IMG/VR virus record: IMGVR_UViG_3300027973_000139
Coordinates: 1 to 33,573 of that record
DNA from: a virus
Strand: one strand, 5' to 3'
Length of the DNA: 33,573 nucleotides
The position numbers were made by a program, and so were the translations under genes. This document shows, in pieces, positions 3,437 to 16,637 of the stretch (within the stretch, counting starts at the first letter, position 1; each line of letters begins with the position of its first letter). Under the pieces are notes generated by a model that was not told where the DNA came from, did no database searches, and was given only the letters and a program-made list of their open reading frames with translations.

Positions 3437-3886
3437 ATGAAAACCCCCACCCCTCAGCAAATCAATCAGTGGCTAGAGCATACCGGCCGAAGTCGAGCCG
3501 ATCTCGCCAAAGACCTCAACGTCAGTGCAGAAACCGTCAAAGGCTGGCTTTCATCCAAGCGACCCATCACGGGTGCAGCCTTACAGCTACTGCAAATACT
3601 CATGAAACCCACACCTGTGATCAATCCAGAATTCAGTCTTGAAGAATGGAATAAAATCCAAGCCCTCGCTGAAGAAAAAGGCATCAGCACCAGGGAATGG
3701 ATAAACAGTGTGCTCAAATGTGAGATCAGCACAAACGCACCGTTAAAGCCTCAAGCCCCAACCGTGAAAGCGGGGCCAAACAAAATCCACATCGCAAACG
3801 ACTTGGTCACAGACACCAGCGACCAGCCTCCAACGGCACTAGCGCGCTTAAAACCTGTGATGAGCCAAGACAAAAAAGAAGCCTAA
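3437..3886 (+). CDS. HTH repressor (lysogeny control candidate)
   Basis: This is the one convincing plus-strand gene, 149 residues. Residues 5-50 form a Cro/cI- or YiaG-type helix-turn-helix (QINQWLEHTGRSRADLAKDL, then NVSAETVKGWLSSKRPITGA). A second short unit at about 66-93 (FSLEEWNKIQALAEEKGIST, then REWINSVL) reads like a ribbon-helix-helix or a compact helical DNA-binding or dimer motif. The C-terminal 55 residues look unstructured. There is no S24/LexA-type peptidase domain, so RecA-stimulated self-cleavage is not expected and induction must work another way. The gene is divergent from the early operon, with two TTGC/GCAA palindromes between them, and has its own terminator. This is the usual arrangement of a lysogeny repressor. 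Confidence 0.8.
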   Translation: MKTPTPQQINQWLEHTGRSRADLAKDLNVSAETVKGWLSSKRPITGAALQLLQILMKPTPVINPEFSLEEWNKIQALAEEKGISTREWINSVLKCEISTNAPLKPQAPTVKAGPNKIHIANDLVTDTSDQPPTALARLKPVMSQDKKEA

Positions 3887-3915
3887 CCCCAAGCATCTCA
3901 ACCAAAATCATTCAA

Positions 3916-3943
3916 GGCCCGTGGTAGCACGGGCCTTTTTTTT
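3916..3943 (+). terminator. Intrinsic terminator of the repressor gene
   Basis: An 8-bp perfect stem GGCCCGTG / CACGGGCC with a four-base GTAG loop (3916-3935) is followed by eight T residues (3936-3943). It lies 30 bases after the repressor stop and before the converging membrane-protein gene. Confidence 0.95.
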
Positions 3944-3950
3944 ATACCCA

Positions 3951-4484
3951 TTACTTTGGGGCCAGACCATTGACGATCATCAAGCCAATGCAAAAGAAGA
4001 TCACCGCATAAAGCATCCACCAAAAGATCTTCGTCATCTTCTGATGAGTGGTTTCAGGTTTATCTTCAAGATCACAATGGCAGGTCGGGCACAGGCCACT
4101 CGTCGCCGCCACATCATTCCCACAGGACCCGCAAAAAAACTGTGTCACGTAACGAGTCTGCAAAAGTCCAGCCGCCAAAATAAAAGCCAAGCCTATCAAA
4201 AATAACGGACTAATCAGCATGCATAAACCAATCAAAAAAACCACAGCCGCCAAGCATGAACTACCACCTGCCCGCACACGGCGATTTTCACGATAAATCC
4301 GACTAGTCGGTTTTCTAATCAACGGCATCACCTTATTCCACGATTTTTGTCCATGCTCACAAACCAAAGCCTCATCCGTGATCCCACCTACGTCAGCCAT
4401 CGCCCGCAGTTGAGCCAACGTAAACGGCCCCTCAGTCGCAGATCCCTGCGCACGGCACAGCCAGTAAGTCGTCGGTGAATTCAT
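3951..4484 (-). CDS. GYF_2-like / zinc-ribbon membrane protein, possible lysogenic conversion gene
   Basis: The 177-residue product has an N-terminal GYF_2 (DUF4339)-like unit at residues 6-57 (YWLCRAQGSATEGPFTLAQL, with a conserved-looking W near 49). A hydrophobic double span follows at 76-108, then a zinc-ribbon-like CGSC (118-121) and CPTC (132-135), and a last membrane span at 153-172. GYF_2 proteins are usually bacterial membrane proteins of unclear role. Here it lies between integrase and repressor, converges with the repressor, and is not needed for virion building. A lysogen-expressed surface or superinfection-exclusion function is therefore plausible. This is inference from position; no catalytic motif is visible. 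Confidence 0.75.
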   Translation of the reverse strand: MNSPTTYWLCRAQGSATEGPFTLAQLRAMADVGGITDEALVCEHGQKSWNKVMPLIRKPTSRIYRENRRVRAGGSSCLAAVVFLIGLCMLISPLFLIGLAFILAAGLLQTRYVTQFFCGSCGNDVAATSGLCPTCHCDLEDKPETTHQKMTKIFWWMLYAVIFFCIGLMIVNGLAPK

Positions 4485-4506
4485 CCATCATCCTTCACCT
4501 TCCGTC

Positions 4507-5667
4507 CTAGGGTTTCAACTCCCAAAACTTCGCCGCCTCCGCCCGAGTCTTAATCGCTCGATAATGCCGGTGCAGCATCGCAGCCGACTCATGGCCCATC
4601 TGCACCTGCAGAGCCGCCTCATTTTGATGATGCGCATAGTGCATCGAGGCAAACGTATGCCGCAGCGCATTGTGAGGCCACTCACCATGCACAGGCTTAA
4701 CTTGAGCGCGCTTGACTCGCTTTTCACCCGCGCCCACAGCATAACCCAGAGCATGGCGGAATAACCGCCACCGCGCATCCCACCACGGGCCACAGATCTT
4801 GCCACTCATCTCGACGCCACCGGCCCGAATCCATGCCACCGCATTTGAGCATAGATCCACGACCCGCCGCCGACGCGTCTTCGCCTGGCTGCCAGCCACA
4901 ATCACCGTGCCAGCGTCAAGATCCACCGAACTCCAGTCCAGCCTCGCAATCTCCGCCGGTCGCAATCCTCCAAACATCCCCAGCACCACAAAGCCCATCA
5001 TGTCCGGCTGCGCGACCGCAGCCCGCAGCAGCTGCTCACACTGGCTCAGCGTCAGCGTGCCGATCTCGCCCTCGGCGGTCTTTTGGCGATCGATCTCCAC
5101 CACCGGATTGATCCGCACATAACCCTCCTTGAGTGCCCAGCTAAACATCGCGCTCACATCCCCCGCATACCCATTCCGCGTGCGACCCGCCCACGATCCC
5201 GAGTGCAGCCAGCCTTCCACATCCTCACGCTTCACCTCGTGAGCCATTGCCGCAGGCAAATGCCGCGCCAAAGATCCCAGCGATACCCCAAGCTGCCGAT
5301 AATATCGCTCCGAGCATCCCGCCTTATCCTTCGCATCACGAAACGTCTCCACCAGGTCAGCCAAGAGCATTGGCTTAGTCATTGTCTTCGCGTGCGCCAG
5401 ATAAAAATCCACCGCCTGCCCAATGGTCGCCCCAGTCACCAGCAATCGTTCCCGTGCCAGCACAATCTCCGCCATCTCTCGACCCGTCATCGAGCTTGCC
5501 AAAGCCCCATGCCGAGCCTGAGCCTCCTGCGCATTTTTCACCGCTTTTTTAGCCTCATCCTCTGTCGGATAAGATCTTTGCACACGTTTCCCCTCGATTT
5601 CACCCAGATCGACCTGCCAACCCACCTTTCCCGAAGCATAAATCCGACGCCGTATTTTCACGGCCAC
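4507..5667 (-). CDS. int: Tyrosine-recombinase integrase
   Basis: The 386-residue protein carries out site-specific recombination between attP and a host attB. An N-terminal arm-binding-type region (RIYASGKVGWQVDLGEIEGK) is followed by a SAM-like core-binding domain at about 82-180 and the catalytic domain at 200-386. Visible catalytic residues are Arg236 (GGLRPAEIARL), a Lys near 263 (QAKTRRRR), His332 and Arg336 (HNALRHTF), His359 (MGHES) and nucleophile Tyr369 (LHRHYR). The start is GTG 5667, since an in-frame stop lies just upstream. attP lies immediately upstream of the gene. The 386-residue length is normal for lambda-type phage integrases. Confidence 0.95.
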   Translation of the reverse strand: MAVKIRRRIYASGKVGWQVDLGEIEGKRVQRSYPTEDEAKKAVKNAQEAQARHGALASSMTGREMAEIVLARERLLVTGATIGQAVDFYLAHAKTMTKPMLLADLVETFRDAKDKAGCSERYYRQLGVSLGSLARHLPAAMAHEVKREDVEGWLHSGSWAGRTRNGYAGDVSAMFSWALKEGYVRINPVVEIDRQKTAEGEIGTLTLSQCEQLLRAAVAQPDMMGFVVLGMFGGLRPAEIARLDWSSVDLDAGTVIVAGSQAKTRRRRVVDLCSNAVAWIRAGGVEMSGKICGPWWDARWRLFRHALGYAVGAGEKRVKRAQVKPVHGEWPHNALRHTFASMHYAHHQNEAALQVQMGHESAAMLHRHYRAIKTRAEAAKFWELKP

Positions 5668-5680
5668 AGCCTATGACCAC

Positions 5681-5739
5681 GTCACGCCCAAGTCACGCTA
5701 AAAAACACGATTCAACCCGATTCAGTCGGTTTTAAAGGG
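5681..5739. promoter_or_regulatory. Probable integrase arm-type repeats next to attP
   Basis: Between int and the core are paired direct repeats spaced about one helical turn: GTCACGC at 5681-5687 and 5692-5698, and CGATTCA at 5708-5714 and 5718-5724. TTTAAAGGG at 5731-5739 recurs at 5810-5818 on the other side of the core. This matches the layout of arm-binding sites around a phage core site, but no binding specificity is known. Confidence 0.45.
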
Positions 5740-5768
5740 TATCCTCTCCCTGTAGCCCCCTGCTACAG

Positions 5769-5791
5769 TGGTGCCTGAGACAGGACTCGAA
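5769..5791 (-). other. attP core matching a tRNA 3' end
   Basis: On the minus strand the sequence reads TTCGAGT (T-loop), CCTGT (T-stem), CTCAGGC (acceptor), A (discriminator), CCA, exactly the last 23 positions of a tRNA. The 5' T-stem partner (ACAGG) is absent, so this is not a tRNA gene but the segment that regenerates a host tRNA 3' end on integration. It lies 101 bp from the integrase start. A 7-bp inverted repeat, CTGTAGC / GCTACAG (5750-5768), abuts the CCA side. Confidence 0.8.
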
Positions 5792-5859
5792 GCGTGCTAG
5801 GGCATCGCATTTAAAGGGGATGGAGGAGGCGCGTTGCGGATGCGTCACGGCTGGGACGG

Positions 5860-6291
5860 CTATCTGCGGACGTGAGTGATTCGGGTGAGGGGGAAGGGGG
5901 CGATGGTGACGGCGTCACTTTGATTGCCGCCTAGGCAGAATGCCTTGGTTCCTTGGATGCGGTCAAGGAGACAGACGTGGTTGCCGCCGGGGCGGGTCAT
6001 GACGATGGTGTCACCACGTTGCCAGAGGAGGGGCTCGGTGATGTCGATGGGGCTACCCCATTTAGCCCAGGCGGCGGCGCGGTAGTGCTCAGGGGGACAG
6101 CCGGTGGCGGTCTCGATGGCGAGGTGACCTCGGAAGGCTCCGCACCAGGGGGTTTTACTGTCGTCTTTGTCGAGCCATGTGGCAGCTTGTTTGATCCAGC
6201 GGGTGATAGTGGGATTTGTGGCCGCTCCAGGGGTTTCTTTGGTGCCGAGGTAGGGCAGGGCGGCGGCGTAGATCTTGGCAGAGGTGGACAT
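5860..6291 (-). CDS. Endolysin, CHAP/NlpC-like peptidoglycan hydrolase (TIGR02594-like)
   Basis: The 143-residue protein resembles the TIGR02594/CHAP family of small phage and bacterial cell-wall amidases or endopeptidases. It opens with a short helix and YLGTKETPGAATNPTITRWI, then TPWCGAF with the nucleophile Cys50, GDTIVMTRPGGNHVCLL with His105, and LGGNQSD with Asn123 as a probable third catalytic residue. It has no signal peptide, so release would depend on the upstream holin. It ends the lysis cassette next to attP. A TTGACA element lies 13 bases before ATG 6291, and an intrinsic terminator separates it from the holin gene. Confidence 0.85.
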   Translation of the reverse strand: MSTSAKIYAAALPYLGTKETPGAATNPTITRWIKQAATWLDKDDSKTPWCGAFRGHLAIETATGCPPEHYRAAAWAKWGSPIDITEPLLWQRGDTIVMTRPGGNHVCLLDRIQGTKAFCLGGNQSDAVTIAPFPLTRITHVRR

Positions 6292-6304
6292 GACTTGAGA
6301 CGAT

Positions 6305-6310
6305 TGTCAA
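6305..6310 (-). promoter_or_regulatory. TTGACA element, 13 nt before the endolysin start
   Basis: TTGACA begins just inside the T-tract of the upstream terminator, and exactly 13 bases separate it from ATG 6291. The same spacing occurs before five other late genes. No -10 box can follow at normal spacing without lying inside the gene. Confidence 0.6.
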
Positions 6311-6344
6311 AAAAAAGGCCGCTGCCTGGTGTGCAGGTAGCGGC
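6309..6344 (-). terminator. Intrinsic terminator between holin and endolysin
   Basis: On the minus strand a stem GCCGCT-A-CCTG / CAGG-C-AGCGGC (6344-6318) with one A:C mismatch and a five-base loop is followed by eight T residues (6316-6309). It should cut readthrough from holin into endolysin, so endolysin expression may rely on leaky readthrough or antitermination. Confidence 0.85.
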
Positions 6345-6379
6345 TGGGAGTGGGAGCGGGTGATGCTGGATCAAAAGGA

Positions 6380-6637
6380 CTATTTGCGGATGCCGCTTTG
6401 CTGGCTGGATTTGTCGGCATCGCGCGCAAAGATGAAGCCGACGCCACCGAGGATCTCGGCTTTGGCGAGCATGAGCTGCTCAGGGCTGAGTTCGGCGGTG
6501 CCGTTGGCGATGCCGACGGTCTGATCGACGATGACCAGTGAGGCATGCAGGATCATGGCGAGGCCTGCGAGGGTGGTCTTGTAATTGGCAAGGGCTGGGT
6601 GGAGGTAACGAGTGGCAAATTTGATGAGCGTTTTCAT
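6380..6637 (-). CDS. Holin
   Basis: The 85-residue protein has a basic amphipathic N-terminus (MKTLIKFATRYLHPALANYK), a hydrophobic span (TTLAGLAMILHASLVIVDQT), a short polar segment, a second moderately hydrophobic stretch (AEILGGVGFIFARD) and a charged end (ADKSSQQSGIRK). The G-x-GF-x-ARDADKSSQ ending is typical of small phage holins of several proteobacterial phages. The position directly before the endolysin supports the call. It would form the inner-membrane lesion that releases the endolysin. Confidence 0.8.
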   Translation of the reverse strand: MKTLIKFATRYLHPALANYKTTLAGLAMILHASLVIVDQTVGIANGTAELSPEQLMLAKAEILGGVGFIFARDADKSSQQSGIRK

Positions 6638-6650
6638 GGCTGGGAGACTT

Positions 6651-6678
6651 CTTGGTGCGTGGTGCTTGGTGCTTGGTT
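6651..6678. repeat. GGTGCTT host-type tandem repeat
   Basis: About four GGTGC(T/G)T units run through the gap between the lipoprotein and holin genes. On the minus strand they read as CACCAAGCACCAAGCACC. A shorter copy is at 9386-9404. Such runs translate as KHQAPSTKHQ and seem to be dispersed in Verrucomicrobiota genomes (from memory, not checked). Confidence 0.7.
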
Positions 6679-6925
6679 ACTTGCTCGGCAGCTCGGGAGC
6701 TGGAGGCGTGTTGGCAGATTTGGTGCGCTGATAATCACGATACCATTGGGTAATGAGGCCTAGGGTCTGGGTGAGGCTGATGCCGGTGGTGGTCTCGTAT
6801 TTGGCGTTGGCCTGGTCGAGCTTGGCCTGCGTGCTGGTCGAAAGGCTTGAGCAGCTGGTGACGGCGGCGAGCATGAAGCCGATGATGGCCAAGAGCAGGA
6901 TGAGGGCGATGGGGCGGGTTTTCAT
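6677..6925 (-). CDS. Small lipoprotein, possible outer-membrane spanin
   Basis: The 82-residue protein has a lipoprotein signal (MKTRPIALILLLAIIGFMLA, then AVTSC) with lipid-attachment Cys25 in the lipobox VTSC. The mature part is a short helix (TQAKLDQANAKYETTTGISL) followed by a polar segment and a proline-rich end (NTPPAPELPSK). Within a lysis cassette next to holin this fits an Rz1-like o-spanin that joins the outer membrane to an inner-membrane partner, for which the 127-aa upstream protein is the candidate. The lipobox is clear; the spanin role is inferred. Confidence 0.7.
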   Translation of the reverse strand: MKTRPIALILLLAIIGFMLAAVTSCSSLSTSTQAKLDQANAKYETTTGISLTQTLGLITQWYRDYQRTKSANTPPAPELPSK

Positions 6926-6980
6926 GACAATCCGGTCAGGATGTCAAACCTCCTAGGCTCTGCGAGCTTCAAAGGTCAGG

Positions 6981-7364
6981 TCAGTGAGGCTTCATTTTTT
7001 CATCGACGGCAGACTTTACGAAGGCGCGGAAATGTTCGACCTGCTCCTGGCTGATCTCACAGAGTTTTTCTAAGGAGACGGTTTGCTTGGTCATCGCCTC
7101 GGCCATGCGTTCTTCACGTTTCAGGGACTCGGTTTTGTGCAGGTCCCAGGTCTCTTTCATCTCGGCTTTGTGCTCGCGCTGGGCTGACAAAAAGAGTCGG
7201 CCGATGTAATAGACGGCAAAGAGCAGTATCCCCTTGAGACCGATCTCTTCCCAGCCTTTGACGTTGGGATCTCCACTGGCATCAGCTAGCCAGGCACTGA
7301 AGCCGAGCAAGGCGGCGAGGGTGAGCTTGATCTCGGTGGCATGAGTGGCGAGATGGGTGAGCAT
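6981..7364 (-). CDS. Membrane coiled-coil protein of the lysis cassette, possible i-spanin or second holin
   Basis: The 127-residue product has two hydrophobic segments (about 13-28, KLTLAALLGFSAWLAD, and 46-61, ILLFAVYYIGRLFLSA) and a long charged coiled-coil-like C-terminus (QREHKAEMKETWDLHKTESL onward). The coiled coil fits an inner-membrane spanin, but two membrane spans are unusual for one and could also fit a holin or antiholin. It sits between a secreted protein and the lipoprotein. Confidence in it being a lysis-module membrane protein is good; the exact role is open. Confidence 0.65.
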   Translation of the reverse strand: MLTHLATHATEIKLTLAALLGFSAWLADASGDPNVKGWEEIGLKGILLFAVYYIGRLFLSAQREHKAEMKETWDLHKTESLKREERMAEAMTKQTVSLEKLCEISQEQVEHFRAFVKSAVDEKMKPH

Positions 7365-7378
7365 GACCGAGAGTGGTA

Positions 7379-7792
7379 TCAGGGATTGGTCACTGTAACG
7401 CGGCCATCTTGATGAAATGTGATGGCAAGTTTGGGGGTGAGGTATTTGGCATCACCGAGTAGGATGGCTGGCGTGGTGCCTGCCAGCGTGGCGATGCTTT
7501 CAAGGTCGGTGCGGGCGAGGGCGGCGGCGCGGAAGACTTTGCTGGCATTGGTGCCGAGGGCCGCGAGGATCTGGGCGGGCGTGGCGCGTTCATTTTCCCA
7601 GAGGGTTTCCCAGAGGTTTTTGATGCGGCTGACGCGGTCAGTCAGGGCCGCATTGCATCCCTGCGCGATGGCCTCAGCCACGACGTGCGCCGGGTCTTGA
7701 GTGGACTCGGTCACGGGGATGATTTGCGCGTGAGAGACCACCAGCATGACTAGCGTGACGGTGACAGCGAGGAGAGAAGGCAGGAGTTTCAT
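7379..7792 (-). CDS. Exported hypothetical protein
   Basis: The 137-residue protein begins with a clear Sec-type signal (MKLLPSLLAVTVTLVMLVVS, cleavage likely after SHA). The mature part is helical (AHVVAEAIAQGCNAALTDRV, then NLWETLWENERATPAQILAA) and ends with a short beta hairpin (LAITFHQDGRVTVTNP). I do not recognise a family. It lies between the large tail fibre and the lysis genes, so it may be a periplasmic lysis factor or a fibre-associated protein. GACATC directly precedes ATG 7792, as it does before the 258-aa tail gene. Confidence 0.7.
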   Translation of the reverse strand: MKLLPSLLAVTVTLVMLVVSHAQIIPVTESTQDPAHVVAEAIAQGCNAALTDRVSRIKNLWETLWENERATPAQILAALGTNASKVFRAAALARTDLESIATLAGTTPAILLGDAKYLTPKLAITFHQDGRVTVTNP

Positions 7793-9385: not shown

Positions 9386-9404
9386 CTTGGTGCTTGGTGC
9401 TTAG
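9386..9404. repeat. CTTGGTG host-type tandem repeat
   Basis: CTTGGTGCTTGGTGCTTAG is a short copy of the repeat at 6651-6678. It provides the TAA stop of the 184-aa gene and the leader of the fibre gene, which has no Shine-Dalgarno sequence. Confidence 0.65.
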
Positions 9405-9955
9405 TTGGGGGCACGGCCTGTGTTCAGGGCAAAGTTAACCCACGTGAGGTCGGCTAGCTGAAATTCAAAGTAGCCACCAGCGGTGACTTTGGCGGCGAGC
9501 TGCTGATTGAACCAGACGATGCTGGCCGCTGCGACGGGATCGGGCGCGGCGTCGTCAGGACGTGCCCAGGCATTGGTGACGGTGACAGGGAAATGCACGC
9601 GCTCACGGCGGCTGCTGAGGGTCCACTCGATCTCACCGACGACGTCAATGGTGGGCTGATCACCGATGAGGGTGCGCAGGGCGGTGCTATCGACGCTACT
9701 GAAGTCGGCGGTGTAAACGGCCCCTGAATTGGTGAGGCTGCTGCTAAAGATCAGCGGGCTGCTGGTGGGGGTCTCTTTAAGGGCAAAGCGGAAGGTGGCA
9801 CCACTGAGGGCAGCGGCGGCGGAGCCGGGCACAAAAAAGGAGAAGCTGACCTGCCACTCAGCGAGCAGGGTGCAATCAACGGTCGGAGCAGCAACCCCTG
9901 TGATAGCTGCGTGAGCGGTGTATTTGGAGAGGTTGACGAAGATCGCGGATTCCAC
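9401..9955 (-). CDS. Tail/baseplate-like protein, 184 aa
   Basis: GTG 9955 (VESAIFVNLSKYTAHAAITG) opens a 184-residue beta-rich protein. Segments such as QVSFSFFVPGSAAAALSGAT and FRFALKETPTSSPLIFSSSL resemble phage upper-baseplate proteins that attach fibres (BppU-like N-terminal domains), though I cannot prove the family. It immediately precedes the main fibre gene. A TTGACA element is exactly 13 bases before the GTG, which supports this start, as does an in-frame stop just upstream. Confidence 0.7.
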   Translation of the reverse strand: MESAIFVNLSKYTAHAAITGVAAPTVDCTLLAEWQVSFSFFVPGSAAAALSGATFRFALKETPTSSPLIFSSSLTNSGAVYTADFSSVDSTALRTLIGDQPTIDVVGEIEWTLSSRRERVHFPVTVTNAWARPDDAAPDPVAAASIVWFNQQLAAKVTAGGYFEFQLADLTWVNFALNTGRAPN

Positions 9956-10350: not shown

Positions 10351-10920
10351 TTACCGTCTCGGGCCTTTGATCCAGCTGACGAGGCTGTAGCGTTTGCCTT
10401 GGGTGACTTCGGTGGCACGGTGCCAGAGGGCACTTCTAAAAAAGAGGAGATCACCAGCATTTTTAAAATGGGTTTCAGGTAGAGGATCACCTTTGAGTTC
10501 AAAGGTGCCTCCCTCGTATTTGGCGGGGTCGGTGAGCTGGAGCACAAGGGTGAGCTTACGCTCAAAGGGATCTTTGCAGAGCTCGCTGCTGTCCTGGTGC
10601 CAGTCGTAGAGTTGGCGGTCGGCACTGTCGTATTCTGTAAGCTGCCACTCGGTGCTGCTGTGCTGGAGATCATAGCCAAAGGTGGCATTGGCGCGGAGGA
10701 TCTCGCCCTCGATGCGGCGGAAGAACCAGAAGAGATCCAGATCATCGTAGCGCAGCCAGCGCACGGTGGAGCGGCGCAGGGTGGCATCGACACGGCTTTG
10801 ACCGCCATGGCCGACGACGGCTGGCTTGGCCGGGTAGTGTTTCACGGCATGCTTGATGAGCATGGTGCATTCTTTCGGGGTCAGAAAGGCTGGGCTGTGA
10901 TACCAGTGATTACGAGTCAT
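10351..10920 (-). CDS. 2-oxoglutarate/Fe(II) dioxygenase, prolyl-4-hydroxylase/PKHD-type
   Basis: The 189-residue enzyme has the double-stranded beta-helix signature of the P4Hc/PKHD family. Iron ligands are His108 and Asp110 (YDWHQDSS) and His167 (ALWHRATEV); Arg177 ([10 protein letters not shown]) is placed to bind 2-oxoglutarate. [20 protein letters not shown] at 121-140 is the family core strand. Related enzymes use Fe(II), O2 and 2-oxoglutarate to hydroxylate protein side chains, classically collagen proline. The start overlaps the stop of the third collagen-like gene as ATGA, so the enzyme is translationally coupled to three collagen-like proteins. The obvious inferred substrate is proline (or lysine) in their Gly-X-Y repeats. 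Other phage 2OG enzymes act on nucleic acids or unknown targets, so the substrate remains unproven. Confidence 0.9.
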
Positions 10921-11912
10921 GAGGCGATGAGGGCAGACGCCCAGAAGGCGGCGTTTTGGTTTTGTTGGTTTGCGGTGAATTCAGGGAATCGCCGTGATGC
11001 GTGACCTTTAGCAATGCCTGATAAAGTTACGGTGCCTGTCATACCGCGCGGGCAGATGACCTGCACGCGGTCATGGTGCAGGATGGCACGCGTGGCGGCT
11101 GGCCGTGCTGTGACCAGGCCGATGACGGTGAGGCTGTCAGGCTCACAGGCAGCGAGTAAACGGGGATCTAAGGCCAGATCACCAGCAGATGAAAAAGGCA
11201 GGATCTCCATGAAGCGAAACTCGGGAGCCTCCAGCACATGCAGGCCGACGATCTGATCACAGGACTGCACGATGGCGAGCTTGGAACCAGGCAGGCCGGG
11301 AGGGCCGGGACTACCTGCATAACCAGGCAGGCCAAAGGAGATGCCGTAATCAGTCCCGCGTGGCCCTTTAGGGCCTGCCTCTGCCTCTATGCCAGGATTT
11401 CCAGGCGGTCCGGGAGGCCCAGGCGGGCCCGGTGTGGTGCTAGGACCAGCCGGAGGCCCCACAGGTCCAGGCGGACCAGTAGGACCTGCGACCGTTTGAG
11501 GTGGGCCGGGTGGCCCGAGGGCTCCTTTATTGCCAGGCGTCAGTGAGCCGGGATCACCTGCATCCCCTGGGTCACCTTTATCCCCCTGATCACCAGGTGG
11601 CCCAGGACTGCCACCGGCGGTGCCGGGGATGCCGGGGATTCCGGGGGCTCCCGGTGTGCCTGCACTTCCCGCAGGCCCCGCACCGCCAGTTGGCCCTGTG
11701 GGTCCCGCAGGGCCTTCAGGTCCGGTGGTGGCTGCAGCGGGATCAAAGTAGACATGAAAGCCATCATGCCTCTCAGTGATTTTGATCACATTCGGGCTGG
11801 CGATGGACTGCTGCAGCCGTGCGAGCACAAAGCTGACAAAGTCCCGAAAGTCCGAGACGTAAGCAAAGCCAGTGCTGCGTTTGAAGCGATAGGTTGTTTT
11901 TTGGCTAACCAT
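10917..11912 (-). CDS. Collagen-like fibre protein C (third of three)
   Basis: The 331-residue protein has an N-terminal domain (1-63, [20 protein letters not shown] onward) that probably attaches it to the tail. A Gly-X-Y collagen region of about 147 residues (64-210) follows, then a C-terminal globular head (211-331, [20 protein letters not shown] onward). Many Y positions are proline ([26 protein letters not shown]), the classic site of 4-hydroxylation; some are lysine (GPK, GDK). The repeat is broken near 100, 123, 139, 158, 175 and 188. The head domain aligns by eye with those of the two preceding genes. It overlaps collagen B by 8 bases and the hydroxylase by 4. The likely role is a trimeric tail-tip or side fibre. 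Confidence 0.9.
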
Positions 11913-12915
11913 AAGCGGCGGAATAAAAGGCGTTGTTACGGGCTAGCTGATCAGCCGTGAAGCTTTTGAAATGCCAGTCACTAAAGCCACGCCGCAGCCC
12001 TGCCACTGTGATCACGCCGGTGATGCTGGAGAGGCGGAATGGGCTGGCCGTGATGCGCAGGCTGTCACCGATGATCTGGGCACCGATGGCCGATGCGCTG
12101 GTCTGAATGACGCAGAGGCTAGAAGGCTCGATGCTGCCGATAAAAAGCGCATCGATGGGCAGGGTGACCACACTGCGCCAGAAAGGGACACGAAAGGTGA
12201 TCTCATCTAGAAACCACGGCCGTGAGGCCTCTGTGGCATGCAGGCCCACGTGCCGCCCGTCAGGGATCGTGACGATGGCAAATTTATCACCCGCTTCTCC
12301 AGGCGTGCCGGGTGGGCCGGGATCACCCGGCAGACCGTTACTGCTAAAACCATCTGTGCCGGGATCTCCAGGATCTCCGGGGCTGCCGGGTTCAAAGGCA
12401 GGCGTGCCCGGTGGGCCGGGTGGGCCGGGTGGCCCGTCTGGTCCAGGGGTTGTGTTTGGCTCACCTATTTCTCCGGGTGGTCCGGCTGGTCCCGCTAGGT
12501 CATCACCAGGCGGACCGGGATCTCCCTTGGGGCCTTTGGGCCCCGGTTCAGTTTCTGCTGGCCCCTTGGGCCCCTGATCTCCCATCTCACCGGGATCACC
12601 GTCTGGGCCGATGGGGGCCACTGGGCTGGCCCCATTGCCGCCGGGGGCTCCAGGCATGCCATTGCTACCGGCTGAGCCCGGTGGCCCGGTTGGGCCGCTT
12701 GGCCCGTCAGGTCCCTTTGGCCCGGGGCCACCCTCGCCACCTGCGCCCTTGATGTAGATGCTGCCATCAGCGCGCACCTGAGATGTTGCCCCATCAAAAT
12801 GCACATTGAAATTCAAAGCTTTGCCCATGAACATCACGAAGTCATTGAGTGACTCCACCTTCAGCACCCCTTTCGGCGGCAGGCGATATTTGAGCGGTTT
12901 TCGACGGGCTTCCAT
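11905..12915 (-). CDS. Collagen-like fibre protein B (second of three)
   Basis: The 336-residue protein has an N-terminal domain of about 57 residues ([20 protein letters not shown] onward), a Gly-X-Y region at 58-210 with breaks near 97, 120, 139, 154, 173 and 190, and a C-terminal head at 211-336 ([20 protein letters not shown] onward). The end of the head ([20 protein letters not shown], then [12 protein letters not shown]) matches collagen A ([20 protein letters not shown]). The N-terminus of A and C shares a short helix with B ([10 protein letters not shown] in [11 protein letters not shown] in [11 protein letters not shown] in C). The start shares one base with the stop of A (TGATG). 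Break positions are close to those of C, which suggests matched chains. Confidence 0.9.
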
Positions 12916-13928
12916 CAGCGGTGAGCCCTCCGGTAAAAGTCGGCATTGGCCTGCATTTGGTCAGTGGTAAAAGTGGGGAAACGCGCGTCTAAAAAACCAC
13001 GGCGCACGCCTGAGACCACGATGGTGGCCACGGCAGGGCACTGAGCAGAAACGTGCAGACGCCAGCCCTTCAGCTGCAAGGTCACCGGGCTGGTGCTGAT
13101 GATGGAGACGATGCGCAGAGACTCAGGCTCGATGCTGCCAAGAAAGCGCGCATCGATGACATGCATCATCGTGCGCTTTCTTAGCACCACCTTGATCTGC
13201 TCACGGAAGCGCGCCTCAGGCATCTCCACGGCCGCCATGCCAAAGATGCCCAGCGGCGTGTTTAAGATAGCTGTCTTGGTAGGGTCACCATCAGCCCCGT
13301 CAGGGCCGGGAGGCCCAGGACTACCTGGCGGGCCTAGGCCACCTGGAGGCGCAGCTGTGCCAGGCGTGCCGGGTGGCCCCGGTGGCCCTGCAGGTCCCGG
13401 TGAACCGTTTGGCCCCGGTGCCCCAGGGGGTCCCGGTTCACCCTCATAATAAATACTGCCCGGCGGCCCCGCAGGCCCCGGTGCGCCCGGAATAGAATTT
13501 CCCACAGGCCCCGGATCTCCGCGATCTCCGCGCTCACCGGCTGGCCCCGCATCTCCGCGCTCACCCACGCCACCCTTGCTGCCTTTGGGGCCTTTTCTAC
13601 CCTTCGGGCCCACAGGTGGTGCGGGTGTGCCTGGTGTGCCCGCTGCGCCTGGTGTGCCTGGAGTTCCCGCACTTCCCGGTGGGCCATCACTGCCTGGCGG
13701 CCCCGGATCTCCAGGCGGACCCGCAGGACCGCCACTGCCACCGGCTAAATGATGATCCACACTCGTGAGGTTAGACGTGTTTTCGGAGCGGCCGCGCTCA
13801 CCAGCAAAATGAATGTCGAAAGGCGCGCTCAGCCTCGGCCCTAACCACGCAGCAAAGTCACGCATCATGCGCAGCGTAGCGATGCCACGCTCAGCTCTTA
13901 GGCGATAGACTGGCCGCTTCTGGATCAT
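12915..13928 (-). CDS. Collagen-like fibre protein A (first of three)
   Basis: The 337-residue protein has an N-terminal tail-attachment-like domain (1-66, [20 protein letters not shown] onward), a Gly-X-Y region at 67-216, and a C-terminal head at 219-337. The first half of the helix is charged ([20 protein letters not shown]), as in collagens stabilised by salt bridges. The second half is proline-rich ([20 protein letters not shown]). Breaks near 102, 144, 158 and 191 roughly match those in B and C relative to the start of the repeat. The start overlaps the upstream stop by four bases. Homotrimers or A-B-C heterotrimers are both possible; the near-equal lengths favour testing the latter. 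Confidence 0.9.
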
Positions 13929-14797
13929 TCAGGGAGGATCTTCTGCTGCGCCTCATAGGTGATGGTGACAAACCAGACCTGCTTACCTGGCAGCTGCTCC
14001 GAATTGATCGAGGCCCGACGCCAGCCATGCGGCCAGTGGTAGCGGTAGCCGCCCGTCGTCCAGAAAGTGAACTCGGTAAAATCTGGCGCATCCGCCGGAA
14101 TCGCATTGCCCGGAATACCGCCAAACGGCGGCTCTGTGATCGTCACAAATGAATCACTCACCACCAGCTTCGGGATGCTTAATTCAGCAGGCTGTGAGCC
14201 TTCGGAGGGCCAGCCATAAACCGTCTCACCCAGCGCATTCGTCTGATTAGCCATGGCCCAATTGACGGATGGCGAAAACGTCTGTGCTGCTGCATTCACG
14301 CGGCGCGTGTAGGGTTTACTACCGATCTGGCCGCGCAGCTGCAAAGCCAGCAGCGTGTAGCCTGCGATCTCCGTCGGCTCCTTCGCCACATCCATGATAT
14401 ACATCTGCGAATGCGCCCCAGCTAAAGGGGAAAGCTCACCACGGGCAAAGATCGGATCGTCAGGCGTGCGCGTGGCGATGGACAGGCTGATCGAGTCAAA
14501 GCCCTCACTCGGCGTGTTCTCAGACTGCTGAAACAGCCGCCACGTTTCTGATGCAGTCTTGAAGCCCTTGTATTCCGCATCAAAGACCCACACATCACCC
14601 AATTGATTGGCCGCCACATCCACAGCCTTCATGATCGGGTAGCCCGGCATGGATGCGCCTGGGCTCACAAAGGCTTCATTGGTGGAATCCACAGAGTAAA
14701 AGCAGGAGTCGAAATCATTCGGCCGCACCCGCCAGCGCAGGCCACCGATCTGCTCTTCCAGAGCACCGAAAGAAATCACTTGGGGAGGTAAAGGCAT
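13925..14797 (-). CDS. Tail-tip protein of unknown family, 290 aa
   Basis: The 290-residue protein is beta-rich and acidic ([20 protein letters not shown] at the start, [20 protein letters not shown] later, [17 protein letters not shown] at the end). Position directly after the tape measure and before the fibre genes suggests a distal-tail or tail-tip protein, to which the collagen fibres may attach. The start immediately follows the tape-measure stop, and the end overlaps collagen A by four bases. I do not recognise a family by motif. Confidence 0.75.
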
Positions 14798-14798
14798 A

Positions 14799-16637
14799 CT
14801 AGGTCAGGGCACGTTCAAAAATTTCTGTTGTCTTAGTAGCGAAAGCGTCAAAGGCCGAGGTCAGCTCAGTCATGCCGCCATCCTTAGCCGTCTCCGCCGC
14901 AGGCGTCCGGCCACCGGCTGGCAGGCCTCGGGTAGTGCTTGGATCTGGCATATTACGACCGCCAAAATTCTCATCTAAAGAAGATCTGATCTTGCTATCC
15001 ATCAGGCTGAAATTGCCGAAATGTTTGTTGATAGACTCATCATACATTTGACGAGATGTGTTCGTTCGTTTCTGAGCACGATCACGCGCATCATTCATTC
15101 CGCCTTGATCTTGGGAATAGCCTTGGATTGTGCTGCGGTTATTGTCATCTTTACCGCCACGCTGCTTTTCAGTCTTAGCTTTAGCATTCACCAGCTGCTC
15201 AGCTTTGCGGTTCGCCTCTTCATAGCTCAGGCCTAGATCATTCACCAAGCGCGCTGTGGTCTCGATGATGTCAGCTTCACGCTGTAGCTTCTCAGCCTTG
15301 CGGTCTTGACCTCGGGCCTGTGCCTCCAGAATATCCAGCTCCAAATCAAACAAAGCCAGATTCCTGATCTGTTGAGATTCCTGCTTGGTTTTTTCAGACG
15401 TCAGTTTTTGGCTTTGCTCAGCTGTTTGGGCTTCAGCATCCCTGATGCGTTCTTCTAAAGTCAGGATGCTTTGCTTCTTCTTTTCTCTTTCGATACCCAG
15501 CTGAGCCGTCAGCGACTCGCCACCCTTCTGGCCTTTCACGGCCGCCAGTTGCCGCTCGATGTCAGCCAGATCAGCTTTGGCAAGCTCTAGCTTCTCAAGG
15601 TCGATTAACTGCAGATCCAGTGTTCGGGTCTGTTCACCCTTCAGCGTGGCTTGCAGCTTTGTTAAAGCCTCATTGGCTTTAGTGGCTTCTTCGCCGCCCT
15701 TTTTGATTTCTTTGTTAGCGTCTGCCTGAGCTTCCTCATAAGCTTCACATTCAGCGGCCAGTTGCTCGTATTCAGCATTGAGCGCATCGGCCTCACGCTG
15801 CGCATCACGGCTGACTTCATTAGCGTCAGCTTGTTCTTTAGCAGCACCCGCGATAGCAGCTTGCAGCTTTGCCACACGTTCAGTGTAGGTGCCATATTCA
15901 GGCCCATAAGTGAAAGCACCGATCAGGCTTTTCACATCGCGGATCGTGCCTGAAATAGTCGCCGCTCCAAAATCTTTCAGGGCTTTCGTGGCGATGTCGA
16001 TGACGTCATTAGCCTCAGCAATGCTGATGAGCTGCTCCTCACTGATGACTGGAGCTTCGGCGATTTCCTGCAGCGTCTCTTTGCTAGTCCTTAGCAGTGG
16101 CAAAAGATCACCAAATTTCTTGCCCATCAGGTCAAAGACCTCCGTGAATCCCTGGCCATTCTTCTGAGCGTTTTGGAAGCCTTCAGCCAGTTCAGCCAGT
16201 TGGCGTTCTGGAGACAGACGCACAAACGCAGCCGCATCAATGCCCAAAACTTTCAAAGCTTGATTCCCATCACTGTCCGCACCCTTACGGATCTCCAGAT
16301 TCATTTTTTGAAGAGCCTTAAAAACCGTCTCCAAATCACTGCCGGTCAGTTTGGCTTGCAGACCGATACGCTGCAAGCTTTCCGGGCTTTCATTGAGTTG
16401 CTGAGCGCGGTCATAAAGGTTGTCATATTCATCGGCCAGATTCTTAATGGCTCCCACCGTCACCGCCGCAGCGGCACCAGTTAAGCCGCCAGAAATCCAT
16501 GCAGGCGTAGGAATAGAGCCAATCTTGCCAAGAGCAGACTGCATGTCTTTTGAAGCTCTATCGACAATCGAAGCTGCACCTTTAGCTCCTGATTCGAGCT
16601 TACCATTGTTCCAGCCTAATTGAATTTCTGCAGCCAT
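14799..16637 (-). CDS. Tape measure protein
   Basis: The 612-residue protein sets tail length in a siphovirus-like tail. It has a short N-terminus, a hydrophobic Ala/Gly span at 46-67 (AWISGGLTGAAAAVTVGAIK), then long helical and coiled-coil segments to about 480 (ADANEVSRDAQREADALNAE, EALTKLQATLKGEQTRTLDL, ILTLEERIRDAEAQTAEQSQ). A Gly/Ser/Pro-rich tail region with a final helix follows. At the usual ratio of about 0.15 nm per residue the tail would be near 90 nm. It follows the chaperone pair, which is the normal order. An ATGACA element inside a 15-bp palindrome lies 13 bases before ATG 16637. Confidence 0.85.
   Translation of the reverse strand: MAAEIQLGWNNGKLESGAKGAASIVDRASKDMQSALGKIGSIPTPAWISGGLTGAAAAVTVGAIKNLADEYDNLYDRAQQLNESPESLQRIGLQAKLTGSDLETVFKALQKMNLEIRKGADSDGNQALKVLGIDAAAFVRLSPERQLAELAEGFQNAQKNGQGFTEVFDLMGKKFGDLLPLLRTSKETLQEIAEAPVISEEQLISIAEANDVIDIATKALKDFGAATISGTIRDVKSLIGAFTYGPEYGTYTERVAKLQAAIAGAAKEQADANEVSRDAQREADALNAEYEQLAAECEAYEEAQADANKEIKKGGEEATKANEALTKLQATLKGEQTRTLDLQLIDLEKLELAKADLADIERQLAAVKGQKGGESLTAQLGIEREKKKQSILTLEERIRDAEAQTAEQSQKLTSEKTKQESQQIRNLALFDLELDILEAQARGQDRKAEKLQREADIIETTARLVNDLGLSYEEANRKAEQLVNAKAKTEKQRGGKDDNNRSTIQGYSQDQGGMNDARDRAQKRTNTSRQMYDESINKHFGNFSLMDSKIRSSLDENFGGRNMPDPSTTRGLPAGGRTPAAETAKDGGMTELTSAFDAFATKTTEIFERALT

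Follow-up and report, generated by a model that had tools for sequence, protein, structure and literature searches.

Gene order at the tail tip

Why does a phage carry an oxygenase gene directly behind three collagen-like genes, and what do the three chains and the enzyme make together? The DNA analysed here, called the window, is the whole IMG/VR virus record IMGVR_UViG_3300027973_000139 of 33,573 bases. It encodes a terminase, portal, protease, capsid, tape measure and integrase, which identifies it as a temperate tailed phage. By terminase the closest isolate is Akkermansia phage Moulinsart (35%), and this likeness suggests that the host is perhaps a member of the Verrucomicrobiota. The relevant genes are listed below.

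14799..16637, minus strand: tape measure protein (phrog_9483, E 1e-19)
13925..14797, minus strand: tail-tip gene, Dit-like by position, directly upstream of chain A with an ATGA overlap
12915..13928, minus strand: collagen chain A, 337 amino acids (Pfam Collagen match)
11905..12915, minus strand: collagen chain B, 336 amino acids (Pfam Collagen match)
10917..11912, minus strand: collagen chain C, 331 amino acids (Pfam Collagen match)
10351..10920, minus strand: 2-oxoglutarate (2OG)-Fe(II) oxygenase E, 189 amino acids, predicted prolyl-hydroxylase-like fold (PF13640), ATGA overlap with chain C
9401..9955, minus strand: baseplate-type protein, downstream of the trio and E (homologues 48% identical in L316 and L317)

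The position of the tape measure gene places the collagen trio at the tail tip. The trio lies within the tail module, with the tape measure and tail-tip genes on one side and baseplate and fibre genes on the other, and from this order we infer that A, B and C are tail-tip fibre proteins of the virion. A family search with the tail-tip gene gave no match. Read directly from the sequence, consecutive genes overlap by 4 nt (tail-tip/A, ATGA), 1 nt (A/B, TGATG), 8 nt (B/C) and 4 nt (C/E, ATGA). The first-pass annotation, made from the sequence alone, had reported three consecutive Gly-X-Y genes followed by a 2OG-Fe(II) oxygenase; its coordinates, catalytic residues and ATGA overlap are all correct, and its gene assignments are borne out by the Pfam matches. 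Chains A, B and C belong to the collagen triple-helix proteins (PF01391) with E-values of 1e-12 to 1e-17 and scores of 47-64 bits against a cut-off of 27, and E matches PF13640 at 2e-13, above the cut-off.

Family, fold and catalytic residues of the enzyme

Four residues of E would form the iron and 2OG site:

10597..10599, minus strand: H108, iron ligand
10591..10593, minus strand: D110, iron ligand
10420..10422, minus strand: H167, iron ligand
10390..10392, minus strand: R177, binding of the 2OG carboxylate

All four are invariant across 62-69 diverse homologues; Y97, Y105, R121 and W183 are further invariant residues. The HxD...H...R residues had thus been named exactly, but their description as a signature of collagen prolyl hydroxylases is not specific, since R177 occupies the 2OG-binding position. 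PHD2- and PiuC-type enzymes typically have arginine there, whereas animal collagen prolyl 4-hydroxylases (P4H) have lysine, as does the collagen prolyl hydroxylase vCPH of virus PBCV-1, so that the motif of E is not strictly that of a collagen P4H. The animal-type enzyme is moreover an alpha2beta2 tetramer with PDI and has a peptide-binding domain, whereas E, with Arg177 instead of Lys and only 189 residues, corresponds to the catalytic domain alone.

The predicted structure of E (mean pLDDT 91.8) is closest in the PDB to the P4H of P. putida (TM 0.80), and the algal P4H with bound (Ser-Pro)5, the PBCV-1 collagen hydroxylase, PHD2 and PiuC are also among the top matches; the nearest solved folds are mostly prolyl hydroxylases. 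A PDB search with a profile of 69 phage homologues returned PiuC-type hydroxylases, the algal P4H, a chlorella-virus P4H and bacterial P4Hs. According to the model E has a prolyl-hydroxylase fold, and the PF13640 match, the invariant HxD...H triad with R177 and the fold match place it in the 2OG-Fe(II) oxygenase superfamily. Its predicted chemistry is that of an iron- and 2OG-dependent hydroxylase. No relative of E was found among 84,980 bacterial and archaeal genomes. Within the set conservation is highest for E, with 80% identity between lineages in which the collagens share 45-47% and the tail-tip gene 62% (its L002 counterpart); the dN/dS of E between these lineages is about 0.09, with dS near saturation.

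Linkage of enzyme and collagen genes in other phages

Two enzyme-based scans of IMG/VR, together with other loci, gave 86 enzyme clusters at 60% identity, and linkage was counted over 63 non-redundant enzyme loci that have 2.5 kb or more of sequence to either side. In 29 of these loci collagen is encoded no more than 4 kb from the enzyme, and six of the 29 have three such genes. The 56 collagen genes inside this distance all share the strand of the enzyme, and collagen was found in 51 of 309 side-bins at 0-2 kb vs 16 of 291 at 3-6 kb, a three-fold difference in likelihood (odds ratio 3.4, p 1e-5). On the enzyme tree the collagen label is clustered, with 14 changes vs 25 after shuffling (0 of 500 shuffles as low), and in three supported clades every member is collagen-linked. 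Clade 1 contains the window, L002, L323, L324, L326 and L327; clade 2 includes cyanophage S-PRM1 (L014); and clade 3 (L333, L335, L353, L360, L361 and L389) consists entirely of trios. Caps, gene order and neighbourhood vary in these clades, and the enzyme gene stands after, before or inside the trio.

Some loci entered by way of collagen. L324 and L327 were first found by the collagen scan and are biased and non-independent for linkage; the window's clade is still collagen-linked without them. The same bias applies to a few further loci in the linkage set, among them L101, L131, L152 and L242. One enzyme-only scan by itself had collagen in view at 27 of 78 loci. A loose count of Gly-X-Y triplets overstated the association because Gly-rich adhesins of the NPGNPG type were counted as collagen, and stricter rules were adopted instead. 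Within-locus permutation, weakly significant on short loci (p 0.02-0.2), was replaced by the distance-decay and tree tests.

As a check, a search for the same gene pair in other phages had been proposed; the pairing recurs in divergent phages and is conserved in the three clades. As judged from gene neighbourhoods, it is real, recurrent and non-random. This bears on the possibility that E stands next to collagen incidentally and serves the tail module in general or host takeover, with for instance EF-Tu, a ribosomal protein, DNA bases or another fibre as its substrate. The nearest solved fold is indeed that of the P. putida P4H with EF-Tu bound, many cyanophages have 7-10 such genes scattered over the genome (7, 10 and 7 PF13640 genes in records W01, W02 and W03), and more than half of the enzyme loci (34 of 63) have no collagen within 4 kb, many of them carrying other Gly-rich fibres, so that the enzymes may just travel with tail-fibre modules. 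We nevertheless regard an incidental adjacency as quite unlikely, given the distance decay, the complete co-orientation, the clade-wide retention of linkage despite unrelated caps, the location of the enzyme on either side of or inside trios (for example in L361 and L389), and the joint absence of trio and enzyme from close relatives.

That absence comes from a lineage comparison among nine close relatives obtained with a terminase scan. Two of these, G032 and G033 (terminase 81-83% identical), have neither a PF13640 gene nor the trio; other small genes occupy its place, and the sole collagen match is a short stretch within another fibre. In this one contrast of gene content, trio and enzyme come or go together. 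Homologues of the baseplate-type protein are retained by relatives that lack the trio.

Several other proteins at these loci deserve mention. At many enzyme loci, such as L021, L027, L045 and L259, a tail protein rich in Gly, Asn and Pro takes the place of collagen; these NPGNPG-type proteins are perhaps polyglycine-II adhesins. A phage protein of 1759 residues (L063:747-6026) contains an unbroken run of 178 GXY-type triplets with the pattern GYSGISGFSG, nearly free of proline. In the related phage L317 a protein of 136 residues (7193-7603) is encoded at the trio position; its N-terminus resembles the A-C caps by eye, and it is possibly a collagen-free ancestor.

Proline and lysine at the Y position

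In the Gly-X-Y runs of the window chains proline occupies 47-53% of the Y positions. Each chain has 4-5 lysines in these runs, every one at Y and none at X, which agrees with the many prolines and some lysines at Y noted in the first-pass annotation. For comparison, the median Y-proline content of 106 collagen ORFs that lack the enzyme in view is 1.5% (90th percentile 19%), and threonine is described as the main Y residue in bacteria in a 2022 review (PMC8968730). Clade 1, to which the window belongs, is the one with high-Y-Pro collagens, in all of its members.

A scan for Gly-Pro-Pro repeats found many high-Y-Pro collagens in phages. Among 22 such records without an adjacent enzyme, 17 have no PF13640 gene anywhere in the record; the five that do compare with 4 of 47 ordinary collagen phages. 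Y-proline was therefore rejected as a sufficient diagnostic of the enzyme, and the enzyme is not obligatory for proline at Y. In terms of sequence composition, a high Y-Pro content is compatible with hydroxylation, not diagnostic of it.

Lysine could be the relevant residue instead: E might mainly be a lysyl hydroxylase, or a maker of sugar attachment points, and alter receptor binding or stability through glycosylation and not through hydroxyproline. The confinement of lysine to Y, with 13 of 13 conserved relative to L007, fits this proposal, as do the collagens of L138, which have 50% lysine at Y beside an enzyme. The few lysines per chain in the window fit it less well; the window's clade is marked by Y-Pro, with almost no lysine in the L324 and L327 collagens, and lysine at Y is common in phage collagens without an enzyme. 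We consider a mainly lysine-directed role very unlikely; prolines are probably the main target of E.

The L138 locus (3609-7573) consists of two KGQKGEKG-rich collagen genes flanking a 2OG oxygenase gene (5794-6384) with gaps of about 10 bp. The opposite pattern occurs in a collagen ORF of L190 (3694-4896), with 41% lysine at X and 54% proline at Y.

Three chains of matched length

The collagen segments of the three chains are nearly equal in length:

13281..13730, minus strand: collagen segment of chain A, residues 67-216 (150 residues), containing a basic block (13 residues)
12283..12723, minus strand: collagen segment of chain B, residues 65-211 (147 residues), whose acidic block is in register with the basic one of A
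11280..11723, minus strand: collagen segment of chain C, residues 64-211 (148 residues), whose acidic block is in register with the basic one of A

The chains are paralogues, and their caps are only 20-37% identical to each other. Loci L002-L004 have the same three orthologues and E in identical order, with collagen segments of 59, 60 and 59 residues; all three chains thus changed length together, about 2.5-fold. Matched spans also occur in the trios of L324 (125/126/116), L327 (105/102/103), L360 (116/114/114), L333 (102/99/99) and L361 (44/41/42). The standard deviation of log collagen span averages 0.11 in enzyme-linked clusters. Random draws give 0.77, with no draw among 20,000 reaching so low a value, and 15 clusters that show no enzyme in view give 0.56 (Mann-Whitney p 0.003). 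Within the window, breaks of the Gly-X-Y repeat are in register between A, B and C (p 0.005), and the basic block of A lies opposite the acidic blocks of B and C (p 0.013). A heterotrimeric collagen is expected to have several homologous chains whose segments agree in length and register, as is seen here. Length matching is the strongest sign in the sequences that linked trios may form one three-chain helix. Paralogy by itself could align the breaks; the joint length change and the charge pattern are less easily explained so. A single-chain structure prediction of C was poor (pLDDT 41).

The first-pass annotation had spoken of three fibres. This is an assumption, since three chains of equal length could be one fibre, which the matched spans and register make probable. 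The alternative is that E hydroxylates three homotrimeric fibres, equal in length through a shared geometric constraint or through common descent. It agrees with the paralogy of A, B and C, and with the S74 chaperone domain in one chain of L333 and of L335. Such domains normally act on homotrimers. Enzyme loci with a single collagen (L323 and L326) also speak for it and imply that enzyme and heterotrimer are separable, and known prokaryotic collagens are described as homotrimers, mostly without hydroxyproline (PMC8968730). Three homotrimers appear unlikely all the same: from lineage to lineage the three lengths shift jointly, the breaks of the repeat are in register, a homotrimer of A would suffer repulsion between its basic blocks, and length matching is absent from unlinked phage collagen clusters. 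A heterotrimer of A, B and C with 1:1:1 assembly is the probable arrangement.

Chains of the linked trios in L333 (4421-7977), L335 (7931-9019) and L389 (3927-4808) have C-terminal Hint-like autoprocessing or S74 chaperone domains, which recall the cleavable ends of procollagen.

Proposed working

We propose a single collagen fibre at the tail tip, with A, B and C as its three distinct alpha chains. One translationally coupled message would provide roughly one copy of each, the caps would bring them together, and the equal Gly-X-Y segments would form a triple helix of composition A:B:C, about 43 nm long for 150 residues with a rise of 0.286 nm. E, translated last from the same message, would modify the chains before winding, with proline at Y as the likeliest target and lysine at Y as a possible one, and the hydroxylation would stabilise the helix. 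That E acts on the window collagens is highly probable. The whole reading, a heterotrimeric fibre whose chains are hydroxylated by E, is the one that we favour on balance. The earlier suggestion that this phage hydroxylates its own collagen is thus retained in part: the recurrent, co-oriented and clade-conserved pairing, the joint absence and the fold argue for it, whereas the collagen-P4H-specific signature and the three fibres are not retained.

More tentatively, with chances just short of even, the linked loci may represent a recurrent phage procollagen operon, with three chains in an obligate A:B:C heterotrimer and a dedicated hydroxylase, retained or put together in several phage groups that are related neither to each other nor in their caps, in some cases with Hint or chaperone domains at chain ends. 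Our search of open-access papers found no report of a phage oxygenase coupled to the phage's own collagen. If this reading is correct, prokaryotic viruses would here have their first heterotrimeric collagen, and also their first one hydroxylated by an enzyme, and three-chain collagen with hydroxylation would occur outside animals. A matched three-chain operon with its own hydroxylase would explain the role of common phage 'auxiliary' genes, and would allow hydroxylated heterotrimeric collagen, whose production is a known obstacle in biomaterials, to be made in a compact bacterial system. The arrangement suggests a manufacture comparable to that in animals, in which some phages assemble a collagen tail fibre from three chains and finish it chemically.

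Comparison with known systems

Among solved enzymes, the P. putida P4H and PHD2-like proteins (4iw3, 5l9b) are the best fold match and share the arginine for 2OG; their known substrates are EF-Tu and HIF, not collagen. PiuC/YbiX PKHD-type hydroxylases give the best sequence-profile match, but E scores far below the NCBIfam cut-offs (42 bits vs 143 for the equivalog) and lacks the C-terminal extension. Similar to E, the PBCV-1 enzyme vCPH (PDB 5c5t; Eriksson 1999, as cited in PMC9301287) is virus-encoded, small and without an accessory subunit, with a fold match at E 8e-10 and TM 0.67-0.70; unlike E it comes from a eukaryotic virus, and the identity is 18%. The use of viral prolyl hydroxylases has been termed cryptic (PMC9301287). 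The P4H of Bacillus anthracis is a bacterial enzyme and hydroxylates (PPG)n in vitro; in contrast to E, coupling to collagen genes is not reported for it in PMC8968730.

On the collagen side, the phage tail protein EPclA (PMC3368898) also has a Gly-X-Y segment with caps, but is a homotrimer without hydroxylase, whereas the window has three matched chains and an enzyme, known from their genes. Mimivirus (PMC9546862) differs in being a giant eukaryotic virus with a multidomain enzyme (lysyl hydroxylase/glycosyltransferase) and an unrelated gene arrangement; it encodes both collagen and a collagen-modifying enzyme, the latter being the putative role of E in the window.
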